Part shown: one piece after another, positions 11,138 to 24,454 of the stretch
Numbering within the stretch: the first letter of the stretch is position 1
How the letters are laid out: each line of letters begins with the position of its first letter
The notes under the pieces: generated by a model
Seen by the model: only the letters and a program-made list of their open reading frames with translations
The model's database searches: none
Told to the model about the DNA's origin: nothing
Assembly (NCBI RefSeq): GCF_004151485.1
Contig: NZ_SBFF01000014.1
Span: 1 to 64,000 of the forward strand
Source: Sphingosinicella sp. CPCC 101087
Lineage (GTDB): Bacteria > Pseudomonadota > Alphaproteobacteria > Sphingomonadales > Sphingomonadaceae
Direction of reading: 5' to 3'
DNA length: 64,000 nt
Translations under genes and position numbers: made by a program

Positions 11138-12223
11138 ATGAACATGGCGCACCAGGTCGACGACACCCGAATTCTCGAGATCAAGGAATTGTCGCCGCCG
11201 GCGCACGTGCTGCGAGAATTCCCGATCAGCGAAGCGGCTGGAGAGACCGTCTTCGCGTCGCGAGCGGCGATCCACGCCATACTCCACGGCCTCGACGACA
11301 GGTTGCTGGTCGTCGTCGGGCCCTGCTCGATCCACGACCCGGGCGCGGCGCGCGAATATGCCGGCCGGCTGGTCGAGCAGCGCCGCCGGCTTTCCGACCG
11401 GCTCGAGATCGTCATGCGCGTCTATTTCGAGAAGCCGCGAACGACCGTCGGCTGGAAGGGGCTGATCAACGACCCCGATCTGGACGGCAGCTTCAAGATC
11501 AACAAGGGGCTGCGCACGGCCCGCGAACTGCTGCTCGACATCGCGGAGTTGGGACTTCCCGCGGGGACGGAATATCTCGACATGATCACGCCGCAATATG
11601 TCGCGGACCTGATCGCCTGGGGCGCAATCGGCGCCCGCACGACCGAATCACAGGTGCACCGCGAGCTTGCATCGGGCCTTTCCTGTCCAGTGGGCTTCAA
11701 GAACGGCACCGACGGAAACCTCCGCATCGCTTTGGATGCCGTGAAGGCTGCATCGCAACCGCACCATTTCCTGTCGGTCACCAAAGGGGGGCATTCCGCG
11801 ATCGTCGCGACCAGCGGCAATGAGGATTGCCACGTCATCCTGCGCGGCGGCCAGCAGCCCAATTACGACCGCGACAGCATCGAGTTTGCGAGCCGTGCTG
11901 CCAGCGCCGCCGGCCTGCCCTGCCGGCTGATGGTGGACGCCAGCCATGGCAACAGCCGCAAGCAGCCCGAAAATCAGCGCGCCGTGATCGAGGACATTGC
12001 CGGCCAGGTCGGCCAGGGCGAGCGCCGGATCTTCGGCGTGATGATCGAGAGCCACCTCGTCGGCGGCAGCCAGGATCTCGTCCCCGGCACCGCTCTGCTC
12101 TACGGACAGAGCATCACCGACGGCTGCGTCGGCTGGGACGAGACGGTCGAGTTGCTCGACCGCCTGGCGCAGGGTGTGGCTCTGCGGCGTGCCGCCTCGG
12201 CCACCGCTTTACGCTCGGCCTGA
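11138..12223 (+). CDS. aroG: 3-deoxy-7-phosphoheptulonate (DAHP) synthase, class I
   Basis: Condenses phosphoenolpyruvate and erythrose 4-phosphate, the first step of the shikimate pathway. It is the type I alpha (E. coli AroF/G/H) form, 361 residues. Visible signatures are the metal-ligand Cys in VVVGPCSIHD, the PEP-site MRVYFEKPRTTVGWKGLIND, GARTTESQVHR, the metal His in DASHGNS, the metal Glu in VMIESHLVGG and the Asp in SITDGCVGW. The N-terminal extension present in feedback-regulated forms is kept. It stands alone, divergent from the receptor operon. ATG 11144 is a possible second start. Confidence 0.9.
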   Translation: MNMAHQVDDTRILEIKELSPPAHVLREFPISEAAGETVFASRAAIHAILHGLDDRLLVVVGPCSIHDPGAAREYAGRLVEQRRRLSDRLEIVMRVYFEKPRTTVGWKGLINDPDLDGSFKINKGLRTARELLLDIAELGLPAGTEYLDMITPQYVADLIAWGAIGARTTESQVHRELASGLSCPVGFKNGTDGNLRIALDAVKAASQPHHFLSVTKGGHSAIVATSGNEDCHVILRGGQQPNYDRDSIEFASRAASAAGLPCRLMVDASHGNSRKQPENQRAVIEDIAGQVGQGERRIFGVMIESHLVGGSQDLVPGTALLYGQSITDGCVGWDETVELLDRLAQGVALRRAASATALRSA

Positions 12224-12313
12224 GCTCTCCCACGCGGCACGCACGTCGGTGGAAAAGCGGTTCCCACCTCCGCACTGCCTGTCTAACGTCGCGGAAAATA
12301 ACGGGGGAATGAT

Positions 12314-18406: not shown

Positions 18407-18442
18407 ATGCATGCTCTTGCATAAATATTCATGAGCATGCAT
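18407..18442. promoter_or_regulatory. ArgR-type operator, 36-bp palindrome before argC
   Basis: The arms ATGCATGCTC (18407-18416) and GAGCATGCAT (18433-18442) are exact reverse complements. Between them lies TGCATAAATATTCA (18418-18431), which fits the ARG-box pattern TGMAT-WWWW-ATKCA without mismatch. The site ends 10 bases before the argC start, where a bound ArgR would block transcription, and argR is the fifth gene of the same operon. Autoregulation by arginine is therefore expected. Confidence 0.8.
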
Positions 18443-18452
18443 ATGGCGGCCA

Positions 18453-19463
18453 ATGATCGACATTGCCATTCTTGGAGCTTCCGGATTCGTTGGGGCGGAG
18501 TTGCTGCGGCTCTCCGCCCTGCATCCCGTGCTGCGCCCCGTCCGGCTGTTCGGTGACAGCCAGGCCGGGCAGCAGCTTGCGCAAGTCCATCCACATCTCG
18601 GGCTCGCTTATCCGGATCTGACTGTCGAGACGTTCTCGCCGTCGGCGCTCGACGGCGTCGGCATGGTCTTCGCGGCGCTTCCTCACGGCAAGTCCCAAGA
18701 GGTCGCTCCCGCGATCATCGAGCGCGGCATTCCCTTCGTCGATCTGGGCGCCGACTTCCGCCTTGACGACGCCGCCACCTATGAACGCTGGTACAAGGAG
18801 CCTCACCGCGCGCCGGAGCTCATGGGCCGCTTCGTCTACGGCATCCCCGAAGTGAACCGTGCTCGGATAGCCGCCTCGAAAACCGTTGCGGCGGCGGGAT
18901 GCTATCCAACCTCGGCCATCCTCGCGCTGAGGCCGTTGCTCGACCTCATTCAACCGGGAACGATCGTCGTCGACGCCGCGTCCGGCGTCTCGGGCGCCGG
19001 CAAGGCGCTCAAGGAAGAGACTCATTTCAACACGGTCGACGAGAATCTGACTGCTTATGGCCTGCTCGGTCACCGCCATACTGCCGAGATGGAGATGCTG
19101 CTGGGTGCCGGCTTGCTGTTCACGCCGCACCTTGCCCCGGTGAATCGCGGCATTCTCGCCACGTGTCACGGGGTCGCGGCACGTCCTCTGGAGCCCGACG
19201 AGCCGCTCAGGGCCCTCGAGGCCGCTTATGCCGGCGAACCCTTCATCCAGGTGTCTGAGAGGCCGCCCTCGACCAAATGGACCTGTGGATCCAACGCCGT
19301 CCATCTCACCGCGCGCTACGACGAACGCACCGGCCGCGTCCTTGCTATCGCCGCGCTCGACAATCTCGTGAAAGGGGCCGCCGGCCAGATGATCCAATGC
19401 GCCAACCTCATGCTCGGCCTCGACGAGGCGGCGGGCCTTCCCAAAGCTGGAATGTGGCCGTGA
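18453..19463 (+). CDS. argC: N-acetyl-gamma-glutamyl-phosphate reductase
   Basis: Third step of arginine synthesis: NADPH reduction of N-acetylglutamyl phosphate to the semialdehyde. The 336-residue protein starts with MIDIAILGASGFVGAELLRL (NADP-binding loop) and carries the nucleophile C150 in AAGCYPTSAILAL, with the family segments GASGVSGAGK and APVNRGI. It is the long ArgC form. It opens the arg operon; the start codon of argJ overlaps its stop in GTGA. No good Shine-Dalgarno is visible because the ArgR operator ends only 10 bases upstream. Confidence 0.92.
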   Translation: MIDIAILGASGFVGAELLRLSALHPVLRPVRLFGDSQAGQQLAQVHPHLGLAYPDLTVETFSPSALDGVGMVFAALPHGKSQEVAPAIIERGIPFVDLGADFRLDDAATYERWYKEPHRAPELMGRFVYGIPEVNRARIAASKTVAAAGCYPTSAILALRPLLDLIQPGTIVVDAASGVSGAGKALKEETHFNTVDENLTAYGLLGHRHTAEMEMLLGAGLLFTPHLAPVNRGILATCHGVAARPLEPDEPLRALEAAYAGEPFIQVSERPPSTKWTCGSNAVHLTARYDERTGRVLAIAALDNLVKGAAGQMIQCANLMLGLDEAAGLPKAGMWP

Positions 19464-20620
19464 GCGTGACCGCCGCCGAAGGCTTCGTCGCGGCCGGCTG
19501 CCATGCCGGAATCAAGCGGCGCCGGCACGACATGGCGCTGCTCGCGACCGCCGATCTGCAACCGGTCACGACCGTTGCCGTCTTCACCCAGAACAAATTC
19601 GTCGCGCCGCCGGTCACGCTGTCGCGCGCTCGGCTCGCCGGCAATGGCGGCAAGGCAGCCGCGATCATCGTCAACAGCGGCAATGCCAATGCGGGCACCG
19701 GCGCCCGCGGCCTGGCCGACGCCACGGCGATGGGGCAGTCCGCCGCCGAAGCGCTCGGCATAGCGGAGCAGGACGTCCTGGTCTGCTCGACCGGTATCAT
19801 CGGCACGCCGCTGCCGATGGACGTCATCGTGGCTGCGGCGCCGAAACTGGCGAAGAAGCTATCGATCGAAGGCGCCGCAGACGCCGCGAAGGGAATCCTC
19901 ACGACCGATCACCTGCCGAAGGAGGCGGTCGTTCGCGGCTCCACCTTCACCGTCGGAGGAATGGCAAAGGGCTGCGGGATGATCGCCCCGAACATGGCGA
20001 CGATGCTCGCTTTCCTGACCACCGACGCACAGGTCGATCGCGAAGTGCTTCAAGCGGTGCTCAAGGACGCGGCAGACCGCACCTTCAACACTCTCAACGT
20101 GGATGGCGCAACTTCCACCAACGATACGGCCGTGCTGATGGCGAGCGGCCGGCGCGGCGCCCCCGATCGCGCCGAATTCGCCGATGCCGTGCACCGCGTC
20201 TGCGAAGACCTGACGCTGCAGATGGCACGTGATGCCGAAGGCATGACCAAGATGGTCAAGCTCCTCGTCAGCGGTGCCGCCAGCGATGAGGAGGCGCGTG
20301 TCGCGGCCAAGAATATCGCGGAAAACAATCTGGTGAAGTGCAGTTGGCACGGGGGCGACCCTTATTGGGGCCGATTGCTCGCCGCGGCCGGATCGGCGGG
20401 GGTCGCCTTCGAGGTCGAGCGGTGCACCGTCGCCTATGGCGGCATCGTCGTCGCGCGCGGGGGTGCGCCGATCGCGCATGACGAGGCAGAAGTCGCCACG
20501 CACATGAAGAACGAGCAGATCGACATCGAGGTCGCTTTGGGCGTCGGCGAGGGCCGGGCACAAGTGATCGGGATCGACCTCGGCCCCGGCTACATCAAGG
20601 AAAATGTGAAGACGTCATGA
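19460..20620 (+). CDS. argJ: Glutamate N-acetyltransferase/ornithine acetyltransferase
   Basis: Transfers acetyl from N-acetylornithine to glutamate, recycling the acetyl group. The 386-residue proenzyme has the self-cleavage site AKGCGMIAPNMA-TMLAFLT, T181 becoming the N-terminal nucleophile of the beta chain; NVDGATSTNDT and GGDPYWGR also fit the family. GTG 19460 overlaps the argC stop (GTGA), and ATGA couples it to argB; a second GTG at 19466 is possible. The frame is open upstream of 19460 inside argC, but that part is not ArgJ. Whether it also uses acetyl-CoA cannot be told from sequence. Confidence 0.92.
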   Translation: MSVTAAEGFVAAGCHAGIKRRRHDMALLATADLQPVTTVAVFTQNKFVAPPVTLSRARLAGNGGKAAAIIVNSGNANAGTGARGLADATAMGQSAAEALGIAEQDVLVCSTGIIGTPLPMDVIVAAAPKLAKKLSIEGAADAAKGILTTDHLPKEAVVRGSTFTVGGMAKGCGMIAPNMATMLAFLTTDAQVDREVLQAVLKDAADRTFNTLNVDGATSTNDTAVLMASGRRGAPDRAEFADAVHRVCEDLTLQMARDAEGMTKMVKLLVSGAASDEEARVAAKNIAENNLVKCSWHGGDPYWGRLLAAAGSAGVAFEVERCTVAYGGIVVARGGAPIAHDEAEVATHMKNEQIDIEVALGVGEGRAQVIGIDLGPGYIKENVKTS

Positions 20621-21486
20621 TGAGTGCCGGAGAAACTGCGCGCGTGCTCGTCCAGGCGCTGCCCTATGTCTACCGATTCGCCGGCAAGGTCGTCGTGGTG
20701 AAGTTGGGCGGCGCCGCCATCGACGCGGAGCTCGACCGGGCGCTTGCCCAGGACGTCCTGCTGCTGCGCAGCGTCGGGGTGCGCTGCGTCCTCGTGCATG
20801 GCGGCGGTCCCCAGGTCGATGCCATGATGCGGCGTGTCGGCAAAGAGCCGGAATTTCGCAACGGCCTTCGCGTCACCGACGCGGAAACCCTCGAGCTGGT
20901 TCGCATGGTGCTGGTCGGCAAGATCAATCGCGACCTGGTCGCCACGATCAATCGCGAGACGCGCGAAGAGCCGGTCGCGGTTGGCGTTTCCGGCGAGGAC
21001 GCCGGTATGCTGACCGTCGCGCCGCGGGAGGCGTCGCTGGGCTTCGTCGGCGACGTCAGCAAAGTGCGCGCCTCGGTTCTGCACCGGCTGCTGGACGAAG
21101 GACTGACCCCGGTCGTCTCGACGATCGGCGCGGACGAGAGCGGCCAGGCCTACAACGTCAACGCCGACGAGGCGGCGCGCGCTATTGCCGTCGCTATGGC
21201 GGCCGAGAAGATCGTGTATCTGACCGCGGCCCCCGGCCTGCTGGCGGACGTCAAGGACGAAAGCAGCCTCGTGCGCCGGATCGGCGCCTCCGCGCTTCGC
21301 GAACGGATCGAGCATGAGAGCGTGAGTGCCGGCATGATCCCCAAGCTGCGGGCCTGTGCCGACGCGGTCGACGGAGGCGTGGGCACTGCGCACATCATCG
21401 ACGGTCGGGTGCCCCATGCCTTGCTGATCGAGCTCCTCACCGATGAGGGAATCGGGACGATGGTGAAGAGGGAGATGGAGGGGTGA
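20617..21486 (+). CDS. argB: Acetylglutamate kinase
   Basis: Phosphorylates N-acetylglutamate, the committed and often arginine-inhibited step. The 289-residue amino-acid kinase shows VVVVKLGGAAID, the LVHGGGPQVDAMMRR nucleotide loop, FRNGLRVTD and AVGVSGEDAGML. It begins with ATGATG overlapping the argJ stop and ends in a GTGA overlap with argF. The N-terminal helix ARVLVQALPYVYRFAGK is the kind used in arginine-sensitive hexamers, so feedback inhibition is likely. Confidence 0.92.
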   Translation: MMSAGETARVLVQALPYVYRFAGKVVVVKLGGAAIDAELDRALAQDVLLLRSVGVRCVLVHGGGPQVDAMMRRVGKEPEFRNGLRVTDAETLELVRMVLVGKINRDLVATINRETREEPVAVGVSGEDAGMLTVAPREASLGFVGDVSKVRASVLHRLLDEGLTPVVSTIGADESGQAYNVNADEAARAIAVAMAAEKIVYLTAAPGLLADVKDESSLVRRIGASALRERIEHESVSAGMIPKLRACADAVDGGVGTAHIIDGRVPHALLIELLTDEGIGTMVKREMEG

Positions 21487-22355
21487 AGGACCTGCTGAAG
21501 ATCTGCGACCTCGGCCGTCAGGACCTGGCGGAAATACTGGCCCTGTCGGAACGCGGCGATCTCGGACGTCCGCTGGCCGGCAAGGGCGTTGCCCTGGTCT
21601 TCCAAAAACCTTCGGCTCGGACTCGCAATTCGATGGAGCTGGCGGTCGTCCAGCTTGGCGGACATCCTGTGTACATCCAGAAGGACGAGGTCGGGCTGGG
21701 AGAACGGGAAAGTGCCGAGGACGTGGCCCGCACCCTGTCCTGCTACCATGAGATCATCGCCGCCCGGGTCATGGACCATAGCGATCTGGTCACCATGGCA
21801 GGCGCCACCGAAACGCCCCTGCTCAACCTCCTGTCCGACACCGATCATCCGCTTCAGGCGTTGGCAGACCTTCTGACCATCAGGCAACTCGTCGGTCGCC
21901 TGGACGGCGTCCGCATCGCCTATATCGGCGACGCCAACAACGTCTGTCGCTCACTGGCCGAGGCATGCGCGCTCTCCGGAGCGGAGCTCACCGTCGCGAG
22001 CCCCCAAGGCTACGGGCTCGAGACCGTCATGGACACGCTCCCCGACGGCGTCCGGCAGGTGGCCGATCCCGCGGAAGCCGTGGAGGGCGCGCAGATAGTC
22101 TATACCGACGTCTGGGTCTCGATGGGCCAGGACGGCGAGGCGGAGGAACGGAGGCGCGCCTTCGCGGCCTATCAGGTCGATGCGGCGCTGATGGCGCGCA
22201 GCGCCGATGCCTGGTTCCTCCATTGCCTGCCGGCCCGGCGCGGCGAGGAAGTCTCGTCCGAGGTAATGGACGGCCCCCGCTCGGCGGTCTGGCGTCAGGC
22301 GGAGAACCGCATGCACACGGCGCGCGGCGCGATGGCCTGGATGATGACGCGGTGA
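21483..22355 (+). CDS. argF: Ornithine carbamoyltransferase
   Basis: Makes citrulline from ornithine and carbamoyl phosphate. The 290-residue protein has a GTG start overlapping the argB stop. The carbamoyl-phosphate motif reads PSARTRNS (SxRT form), then LGERESAEDVARTLSCY, DHPLQALADL, and for ornithine the VWVSMGQ loop and HCLPARRGEEV near the C-terminus. The SMG loop favours ornithine rather than N-acetylornithine as substrate. Ala in the carbamoyl-phosphate motif replaces the common Thr of STRT. Its sequence style recalls actinobacterial enzymes more than alphaproteobacterial ones, judged from memory. Confidence 0.9.
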   Translation: MKDLLKICDLGRQDLAEILALSERGDLGRPLAGKGVALVFQKPSARTRNSMELAVVQLGGHPVYIQKDEVGLGERESAEDVARTLSCYHEIIAARVMDHSDLVTMAGATETPLLNLLSDTDHPLQALADLLTIRQLVGRLDGVRIAYIGDANNVCRSLAEACALSGAELTVASPQGYGLETVMDTLPDGVRQVADPAEAVEGAQIVYTDVWVSMGQDGEAEERRRAFAAYQVDAALMARSADAWFLHCLPARRGEEVSSEVMDGPRSAVWRQAENRMHTARGAMAWMMTR

Positions 22356-22368
22356 GCCGGGATCGGTC

Positions 22369-22851
22369 ATGACCGATACTCGCTCCCGACGATTGCGCAC
22401 CCTTGCCGACCTTCTTCGGAGCGGCACCCTGGCGAGCCAGGAGGAAGCGACCGAGCGGCTGCGCGCGCTCGGCTTCGCCGTTACCCAGGCGACGGTATCC
22501 CGCGATCTCGAGCAGCTCGGCGCGATCAAGGTGAAGCGGGGCGGCGTGCTCACCTATGCGCTCCCCGACCAGATGGCCGAGACCGACTGGACCGCCGGCC
22601 GGCTCGAGCGGATCCTCGGCGAATGGGTGCTGTCGATCGAGGCGGCGGGGCAGCTCCTCATCGTCAAGACGCCACCCGGCTCCGCCCATTTGGTCGCCTC
22701 GGCTATCGACCATGCCCAGCTGCCGGAGATTGCCGGCACCGTCTCGGGCGACGACACCCTCTTCCTTGCCGTCCGCGACGGCGTGGCCATTCCCACCCTC
22801 CTCTGCCGCTTCGAGCGGCTGATGGGCAAAGCGAAAGAAGTGTACGCATGA
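22369..22851 (+). CDS. argR: Arginine repressor
   Basis: Regulator of 160 residues with the two ArgR domains: an N-terminal winged helix (recognition segment [20 protein letters not shown]) and a C-terminal hexamerisation and arginine-binding domain with the [11 protein letters not shown] motif. It binds ARG boxes when arginine is present; one such palindrome lies before argC at 18407-18442. It starts 13 bases after argF and its ATGA overlaps argG. ArgR-family repressors are common in actinobacteria, firmicutes and gammaproteobacteria and to my knowledge unusual in sphingomonads. Confidence 0.92.
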
Positions 22852-24092
22852 GTGACAAGCGCCGGGCCGAAGGCCCGAAGAAGGTGGTGCTCGCTTATTC
22901 CGGCGGCCTCGACACCTCCATCATCCTCAAATGGCTTCAGACCGAATATGGCGCGGAGGTCGTCACCTTCACCGCCGATCTGGGCCAGGGCGAGGAGGTC
23001 GAGCCGGCGCGGCGCAAGGCCGAGCTGCTCGGCATCAAGCCGGCCAACATCTTCATCGAGGACCTGCGCGAGGAATTCGTCCGCGACTATGTCTTCCCGA
23101 TGTTTCGGGCGAACACCGTCTACGAGGGACAGTATCTGCTCGGCACGTCGATCGCGCGGCCGCTCATCGCCAAGCGGCAGATCGAGATTGCCCGCGCAGT
23201 CGGCGCCGATGCCGTCTGTCACGGCGCGACGGGCAAGGGCAACGACCAGGTCCGTTTCGAGCTCGGCTATTATGCGCTCGAGCCCGACATCAGGGTGATC
23301 GCGCCGTGGCGGGAGTGGACCTTCGCCAGCCGCGAGCAGCTGATCGACTTCGCCGAGAAGCACCAGATCCCGATCGCCAAGGACAAGAAGGGCGAGGCCC
23401 CCTTCTCCATCGACGCCAACCTCCTCCACTCCTCGTCGGAAGGAAAGGTGCTCGAGGATCCTTCGGTCGAGGCGCCGGAATATGTCCATCAGCGGACGAT
23501 CTCTCCTGAGGAGGCGCCTGATCGGCCGACGGTGATCGAGATCGCCTTCGAGCAGGGCGATCCGGTCGCGATCGACGGCGAGCGCCTCTCGCCGGCGGAC
23601 CTGCTCGCCCGCCTGAACCAGCTCGGCCACGATAACGGCATCGGCCGCCTCGATCTCGTCGAGAACCGCTTCGTCGGCATGAAGTCGCGCGGCGTCTACG
23701 AGACGCCCGGCGGGGCGATCCTGCTCGCCGCCCATCGCGGCATCGAGTCGATCACGCTGGACGGCGGCGCCATGCATCTCAAGGACGAGATCATGCCGCG
23801 CTACGCCAAGCTCATCTATAACGGCTTCTGGTTCTCTCCGGAGCGCGAGATGCTGCAGGCGCTGATCGACAGGAGCCAGGAATTCGTCACCGGCACGGTG
23901 CGGGTGAAGCTCTACAAGGGCAATGCCACGGTGATCGGCCGCGACAGCCCGTTCGCGCTCTACGACCAGGATCTGGTCACGTTCGAGGAGGGCAGCGGCA
24001 GCTACGACCAGCGCGACGCCGCCGGCTTTATCCGCCTGAACGCCCTCAGGCTGCGCATCGCGGCGACGCGGGCGCGAAGGGCGCAGGGCTGA
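22848..24092 (+). CDS. argG: Argininosuccinate synthase
   Basis: Joins citrulline and aspartate using ATP. The 414-residue protein shows the PP-loop [15 protein letters not shown], the citrulline and aspartate site [27 protein letters not shown] and SPYFSI-like APFSIDANL. It reads like the alphaproteobacterial type ([18 protein letters not shown]). The ATG overlaps the argR stop (ATGA). Joined to foreign-looking argCJBFR, it looks like the resident gene to which the cluster was attached. argD and argH are not in the window. Confidence 0.93.
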
Positions 24093-24454
24093 GCGGCGAG
24101 ACCGATCTCGACCGGCTTCTCGCCGGGCTCGAGCCGCGGCTCGACCGGGTCGAATATGGCTTCGAGCCGGTGGCGGAGCCGCCGTCGCTGGGCGGCGTCT
24201 TTGCCTTGATTCGGGAGGAGGAAGGGCTGACCGCGATCCGCCCCGGCTCCGGCTGGGCGCGGATCACGCTCGGCGTCCATTCCAGCCTTGAGGCGGTGGG
24301 GCTTACGGCGCGAATCGCGGGCGCCCTGGCCGAATCCGGGATCGCCGCGAACATCGTCGCCGGCTTGCGGCACGACCATCTGTTCGTGCCGTGGGGCCGA
24401 CGGGAGGAGGCGCTGGCGGTGCTGGCTGGCCTTTCCCGCGCCGGCGCGCGATGA
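24089..24454 (+). CDS. ACT-domain protein, apparent CTG start
   Basis: Small ACT-fold protein of about 121 residues, COG3602-like: [17 protein letters not shown] at the N-terminus and [39 protein letters not shown] downstream. ACT domains usually bind amino acids. The family N-terminus begins directly at a CTG (24089) that overlaps the argG stop in CTGA; no ATG, GTG or TTG occurs in frame upstream of it, while the first canonical start, GTG 24170, would remove 27 family residues. AAGGGCGCAGGG gives a ribosome site. The coupling and amino-acid fold suggest a link to arginine metabolism, which is inference. Confidence 0.7.

Follow-up and report, generated by a model that had tools for sequence, protein, structure and literature searches.

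The DNA analysed here, referred to as the window, is a stretch of 64,000 nucleotides (nt) from Sphingosinicella sp. CPCC 101087 (contig NZ_SBFF01000014.1, positions 1 to 64,000), and our subject is an arginine biosynthesis operon at 18453-24092. Six intact open reading frames lie there on the forward strand in the order argC-argJ-argB-argF-argR-argG, which is the order, strand and span described in an earlier note on this sequence. Our results make it very probable that this arginine operon, its own repressor included, goes back to a single import from an actinobacterium into an ancestor of the window's genus and of its relatives. The operon and the operator-like site in front of it consist of the following features:

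18416..18433, forward strand: ARG-box-like operator CTTGCATAAATATTCATG, before argC, inside 17-nt inverted arms
18453..19463, forward strand: argC, N-acetyl-gamma-glutamyl-phosphate reductase of the TIGR01850 type
19460..20620, forward strand: argJ, ornithine acetyltransferase / N-acetylglutamate synthase, bifunctional according to the name of its family model
20617..21486, forward strand: argB, acetylglutamate kinase
21483..22355, forward strand: argF, ornithine carbamoyltransferase of 290 amino acids, the sole one above the family cut-off in the genome
22369..22851, forward strand: argR, arginine repressor of 160 amino acids, with the GDDT stretch of its C-terminal domain kept
22848..24092, forward strand: argG, argininosuccinate synthase of alphaproteobacterial type

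The enzymes score above the cut-offs of their NCBIfam models: ArgC with 362.9 bits against 233.6 (TIGR01850), ArgJ with 420.9 against 351 (NF003802), ArgB with 236.9 against 151.3 (TIGR00761), ArgF with 308.1 against 280.85 (TIGR00658) and ArgG with 622.1 against 334 (NF001770). Both halves of ArgR pass the Pfam cut-offs, the N-terminal DNA-binding domain PF01316 with 58.6 bits and the C-terminal domain PF02863 with 75.9 bits. Its 123.6 bits for the whole-protein model TIGR01529 fall below the cut-off of 130.45, which is a score threshold and reflects no structural feature. The GDDT stretch has a role in arginine binding.

Adjacent genes overlap by 4 nt at the C/J (GTGA), J/B (ATGA), B/F (GTGA) and R/G (ATGA) junctions, and a gap of 13 nt (22356-22368) separates argF from argR. 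The overlaps and the gap reported in the earlier note are real, but six genes make five junctions and not six. The overlaps suggest that the operon is read as one transcript. A tblastn search of the window, with a single query for each gene, found neither argD nor argH. This agrees with the note's view that both lie elsewhere, and elsewhere in the genome is where they would be expected. The G+C content of the operon is level with that of its neighbourhood (0.63-0.70 across 10000-32000), so that base composition gives no signal of foreign origin.

The source genome (4.70 Mb, 99.96% complete), in which the window opens contig 6, gave one match each for ArgF, ArgB, ArgJ and ArgC, all of them in the cluster. 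A second match to the ornithine carbamoyltransferase model, on contig 16, stays below the family cut-off and is probably an aspartate carbamoyltransferase. This set differs in its C, J, B and F genes, and in their control, from that of canonical sphingomonads, with which it shares an alphaproteobacterial-type argG and presumably ArgD and ArgH. In ArgR-negative relatives, native argC, argJ, argB and argF lie apart. The ArgF of all 20 ArgR-negative family members compared was canonical, at 38-48% identity to the window ArgF. Canonical argF stood behind argD in 17/17 loci (12 of these from ArgR-negative genomes), with hslO nearby in 16 of the 17 within the fetched 1.5 kb. Both canonical sphingomonad ArgC proteins tested scored above the cut-off of TIGR01851 and below that of TIGR01850, the reverse of the window ArgC. 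The canonical set consists of unlinked genes, with argD-argF mostly beside hslO, an ArgC of the TIGR01851 type and no ArgR.

Gene trees carry most of the argument on origin. They were quick trees, apart from a careful run that included ArgB; support values that bear a star in our analysis are called starred below. The sphingomonad cluster sequences used formed a single clade for each of five proteins, with starred support of 100 for ArgF, ArgJ and ArgB, 98 for ArgC and 95 for ArgR. The 23 cluster-type ArgF sequences grouped with 14 Actinomycetota at a starred 96, the 30 cluster ArgJ with 6 Actinomycetota at a starred 96, and the 30 cluster ArgC with 14 Actinomycetota at a starred 97. In approximately unbiased (AU) tests, a joint clade with canonical Proteobacteria was rejected for ArgJ (p 1.1e-8) and for ArgF (p 2.9e-4), and in the sequence set of the ArgF test cluster ArgF and syntenic Actinomycetota formed a clade at a starred 99. 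The quick trees thus indicate that ArgC, ArgJ and ArgF are of actinobacterial descent, while ArgB leans towards an actinobacterial affinity at values below firm support.

The best ArgF identity in 296 actinobacterial genomes was 60%. Gemmatimonadota were considered as donor and rejected, as their best ArgF reached 49% (150 genomes) compared to 60% in Actinomycetota. Look-ups in the Protein Data Bank (PDB) were likewise set aside as a guide to origin: the top chain for ArgF was 2ef0 and 2i6u came seventh, yet the genome search gives Actinomycetota at 60%. We take 2ef0 to be from Thermus and 2i6u from M. tuberculosis.

ArgG groups elsewhere. The window ArgG is 81% identical to that of Methylobacterium, 79% to that of Sinorhizobium and 74.6% to that of S. 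parapaucimobilis, and its identity to 17 actinobacterial sequences is 42-65% (median 45%). In the ArgG tree, 28 cluster ArgGs form a clade with five alphaproteobacterial ones at a starred 99. Therefore, ArgG is of the recipient's class, alphaproteobacterial in type and not actinobacterial. This bears out the earlier note where it called ArgG alphaproteobacterial. Its further claim, that the incoming genes were joined to a resident argG, is weaker than stated: the single canonical sphingomonad ArgG compared, that of S. parapaucimobilis, is not the closest relative, and a resident sphingomonad origin of the cluster argG may only be surmised. With C, J and F on one side and ArgG on the other, the locus reads as a mosaic operon, in which neighbours of different phyletic origin would share a transcript. 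A scan of viral contigs with the S. parapaucimobilis ArgG found one contig, at 64%.

The site before argC suggests that the control of the operon came along. The inverted arms around CTTGCATAAATATTCATG (18407-18423 and 18426-18442) are 88% complementary. CTTGCATAAATATTCATG is the sole match in the window, at two or fewer mismatches, to a degenerate ARG-box pattern that was shaped after seeing the site; 0.13 matches are expected in the window, and 11 of 100 shuffles held at least one. Since a box derived from the cluster is drawn from the same sequences, published consensuses provide the fair test. We took these from the excerpted text of PMC4865122, in which the Streptomyces box reads AWTGCATRWWYATGCAWT. 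CTTGCATAAATATTCATG differs from each of the three consensuses at 3 positions; when its own upstream region was shuffled 100 times, a fit this good arose in 1, 0 and 0 cases.

We scored 30 distinct upstream regions of sphingomonad clusters, using first-order Markov resamples as shuffles; a region counted as matched when its fit beat 99 or more of 100 of them. The Streptomyces box was found in 27/30 regions (mean 2.1 mismatches), the B. subtilis box in 22/30 (mean 4.1) and the E. coli box in 12/30 (mean 3.5). Upstream of canonical sphingomonad argC, the Streptomyces box matched in one of nine regions (L220, 5 mismatches; mean 7.3; L225 was not placed). In the fetched actinobacterial upstream regions it matched in 9/18 (mean 4.3 mismatches), so the match there is real but looser. 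In 26 of the 30 cluster regions the site is placed 35 to 39 nt ahead of argC. In loci with argR turned round, argR and argC share a space of 54-59 nt. Judged from these regions, the ARG box appears to travel with the cluster; ArgR would be expected to bind it and to repress in an arginine-dependent manner. A leaderless or -35/-10 promoter for argC is an idea suggested by the box spacing, for which a promoter scan gave no consensus site.

Gene order provides a further link to Actinomycetota. Among the 20 actinobacterial neighbourhoods fetched, seven (L355-L357 and L359-L362) hold the order C-J-B-D-F-R-G, and their proteins are 48-55% (ArgC), 48-52% (ArgJ; 40% in L362), 52-57% (ArgB) and 54-59% (ArgF) identical to those of the window. 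The argH gene follows argG in L355, as it does in most of the syntenic loci. The window operon resembles the actinobacterial argCJBDFRGH loci (L355, L357, L359, L361) in the order of its C, J, B, F, R and G genes, in the position of argR and in the ARG-box-like site before argC, which Actinomycetota match more loosely; the C, J, B and F proteins are 49-59% identical to theirs. It differs from them in its alphaproteobacterial argG, in the lack of argH behind argG and in the lack of argD between argB and argF, which overlap by 4 nt. All 19 fetched actinobacterial loci having both argB and argF place argD between them. This holds for none of the 45 sphingomonad cluster loci in which both genes are visible (some genomes counted twice), where the gap is at most 229 nt and leaves no room for argD. 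Since the syntenic actinobacterial loci hold argD at this place, it would have been lost from the incoming set.

The cluster is rare in the order and common in a few genera. An ArgR model matched 24 of 396 genomes sampled from the order. Two of these matches are weak (E 4e-4 and 7e-4) and fall on parts of long frames; G053 and G033 carry different ArgRs, at 38% and 36% to that of the window. The remaining 20 genomes carry an ArgR at least 51% identical to the window's and belong to three genera: 4 to the window's genus (g1), 15 to g13 and 1 to g26. This accords with the earlier note's remark that ArgR is unusual in sphingomonads. Likewise, ArgR is reported as absent outside the gammaproteobacteria in a survey that covered 196 reference genomes of Proteobacteria (PMC5343134). 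Cluster-type ArgF occurs in 25 of 26 g1 genomes, the exception being an 82%-complete assembly, and in 13 of the 20 ArgR-carrying genomes (59-100%).

Sphingomonad ArgF proteins fall into two classes, cluster-type at 59-82% and canonical at 38-48% to the window ArgF. Three arrangements of the cluster were seen: C-J-B-F-R-G; argR divergent before C-J-B-F-G; and C-J-B-R without argF. No ArgF above 48% was present among the matches listed in the other 384 genomes of an even sample of the class (385 genomes). ArgJ matched at E 1e-70 in 57 of 398 genomes of a sample of the phylum, and among the matches listed at that threshold in the other 397 none exceeded 47%. Plasmid searches showed no close carrier; the best-ranked ArgF reached 42% and the best-ranked ArgR 43%.

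The g1 genomes include Sphingosinicella terrae, Sphingomonas parva and Sphingomonas deserti. According to an excerpt of a 2025 revision of the order (PMC12210278), Allosphingosinicella (with S. deserti), Sphingomicrobium and Pseudosphingomonas make up clade 3, the Sphingomicrobiaceae; g1 and g13 would belong to this clade. NCBI places S. terrae in the Sphingosinicellaceae. The recipient was probably an ancestor in the Allosphingosinicella/Sphingomicrobium group.

As the cluster is common to the genus and also occurs in genomes from two other genera, the simplest account is that it was imported once, long ago, and inherited since. The incoming set would have been of the type operator-argC-J-B-D-F-R-G(-H). 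After its arrival the native unlinked argC (of a different family), argJ and argB would have been lost, and so would the native argF of the argD-argF locus in most lineages seen, whereas others would have lost the imported argF. The incoming argD would have been dropped, and the last place came to be held by an alphaproteobacterial argG. In the working model, arginine-bound ArgR on the ARG box before argC would shut off the ArgC/J/B/F/R/G transcript. Without arginine, the enzymes would be made together, coupled via their overlapping start and stop codons, with ArgD and ArgH supplied from elsewhere in the genome.

We consider it somewhat more probable than its opposite that a whole feedback-controlled cassette of operator, repressor and enzymes moved in this way. 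It would have come from Actinomycetota into a class generally without ArgR and replaced native genes of a core pathway that were not linked to one another; the operator would have been kept since a multi-genus ancestor, while later lineages lost argF, turned argR round or joined argG and argH.

Other histories are less probable. The whole set, including the alphaproteobacterial-like argG, might have come from one donor with nothing resident joined to it. The actinobacterial locus L362 (G1100) has C-J-B-D-F-R-G with an ArgG at 65%, which pairs with that of L029 (starred 96), argG keeps its old place behind argR, and the ArgG of S. parapaucimobilis is more distant than that of Methylobacterium. 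However, the L362 ArgG lies outside the alphaproteobacterial clade that holds the cluster ArgGs. In all eight g13 loci whose cluster includes argG (L404-L411), argH is found no more than 54 nt away from it, convergent in six and tandem in two, which is not the donor arrangement. The one g13 ArgH tested (L406) is of alphaproteobacterial type, at 64% to Sinorhizobium and 45% to L355. This adjacency fits an import beside a resident argG-argH pair, or a replacement in place, and we regard a single donor for the whole set as unlikely.

Less likely still are separate imports into different sphingomonad lineages. The three cluster arrangements might suggest them, but the sphingomonad sequences form one clade in the ArgC, ArgJ, ArgB, ArgF and ArgR trees alike. 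Slightly less probable again is a cluster ancestral in Sphingomonadales or Alphaproteobacteria that was lost or scattered in all others. Its presence throughout almost the whole genus and in two more genera would suit this, and the ArgB test is compatible with a link to canonical sphingomonad ArgB. Yet the ArgF and ArgJ tests reject it, the canonical ArgC is of another family in both proteins tested, and among the matches listed for the other genomes of the class sample there is no cluster-type ArgF. The two outcomes that the earlier note named as fatal to a transfer, all six genes grouping with sphingomonads or a cluster ancestral across the order, were not found.

Several results weigh against a single actinobacterial import. 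The AU test rejected a clade of cluster ArgJ with syntenic Actinomycetota (p 5.5e-11) when L362 was included, because the L362 ArgJ is proteobacterial; without L362, in a smaller set, this clade had an unstarred 91. The grouping of ArgB with Actinomycetota is also unstarred (81, and 82/86 in the careful tree), and the AU test rejected neither its union with canonical sphingomonad ArgB (p 0.605) nor that with syntenic Actinomycetota (p 0.396). The sphingomonad ArgR clade has no firm sister group, the ArgC tree contains no canonical sphingomonad sequence, and the donor is placed at the level of a phylum (Actinomycetota).

Thirteen of the 20 actinobacterial loci lack the full order: seven are without argJ, five carry argC, argR and argG in reversed orientation, and one shows argF alone. 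In the named actinobacterial loci that turned up through similarity of their ArgR, no argF stands between argB and argR. Of the 20 ArgR-carrying genomes, six pair a C-J-B-R cluster with a canonical ArgF (44-48%), and in G176 none of argC, argJ, argB and argF was matched. The box of the window is as close to the consensuses of E. coli and B. subtilis as to that of Streptomyces, so it cannot alone tell the types apart, and the scan for an argC promoter found no sigma-70 consensus.

Where the earlier note had ArgF, ArgB and ArgR as actinobacterial-like, this stands for ArgF; ArgB leans that way unfirmly and ArgR lacks a firm sister. Its transfer of argCJBFR is partly upheld by the descent of C, J and F and by the genome search for second copies of argC, argJ, argB and argF that it had proposed, which found none, but the transfer was not a local event of this genome.

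With these points weighed, we regard a mosaic-operon transfer as well supported and consider that its regulation probably moved with it. The kind of event is already known, and this is a clear new case. Omelchenko et al. are said to have described, in 2003, mosaic operons that arose via transfer and gene displacement in situ. The present operon resembles known ones in that foreign and own-type genes stand in one operon. It differs from them in that a repressor and its box accompany the set and that unlinked native genes were lost.

Displacement as a set is not expected for the genes of a core amino-acid pathway, and here four scattered native genes appear to have been replaced by one imported operon bringing its own control. 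If true, an entire regulon would have been transplanted in nature, cis and trans parts together. Living relatives differ in that some retain canonical argF, some have argR divergent, and argG occurs with argH or without it; from such differences the order of the steps can be tested. Among open-licence papers in PubMed Central (PMC), judged by title and the start of the abstract, we found none describing this cluster.

Some loci deserve mention in their own right. L362 carries C-J-B-D-F-R-G-H, its ArgJ groups with Alphaproteobacteria and its ArgG adjoins them; it seems to be a mosaic running in the opposite direction. In L029 (1-3188), a contig labelled as a metagenome-assembled genome (MAG) of Massilia, B-F-R are of the sphingomonad cluster type, with ArgF at 80% to L243, and ArgG is of another kind, at 72% to that of L362. 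Either ArgG was swapped a second time here or the contig is mis-binned. L418, from G176, which is listed as 99% complete, has kept ArgR without argC, argJ, argB and argF and may belong to an arginine auxotroph. In L423 (G053, contig 23), with its ArgR at 38%, argC adjoins argB and there is no ArgJ match; perhaps a different arginine gene set was imported here independently. L034 holds a second, partial argG at 11955-12257 (residues 306-406, 86%), which follows the intact gene at a distance of about 2.3 kb.

When the window operon is compared with that of Sphingosinicella terrae (L027, 3990-9721), divergence drops along its length. Third-codon identity is 0.54 in argC, 0.61 in argJ, 0.71 in argB, 0.61 in argF, 0.86 in argR, 0.91 in argG and 0.80 in frmA, a pattern that would fit an exchange of the argR-argG end among relatives.

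Directly 3' of argG lies one more frame:

24092..24454, forward strand: frame of a small ACT_7-domain protein, its start uncertain (CTG at 24089 or GTG at 24170)

The CTG candidate overlaps the argG stop, and the gene is perhaps in the same transcript as argG. Among the fetched loci long enough, L027 and L028 also have an ACT_7 gene 3' of argG; in the actinobacterial locus L358 a 44% relative is encoded upstream of argC.

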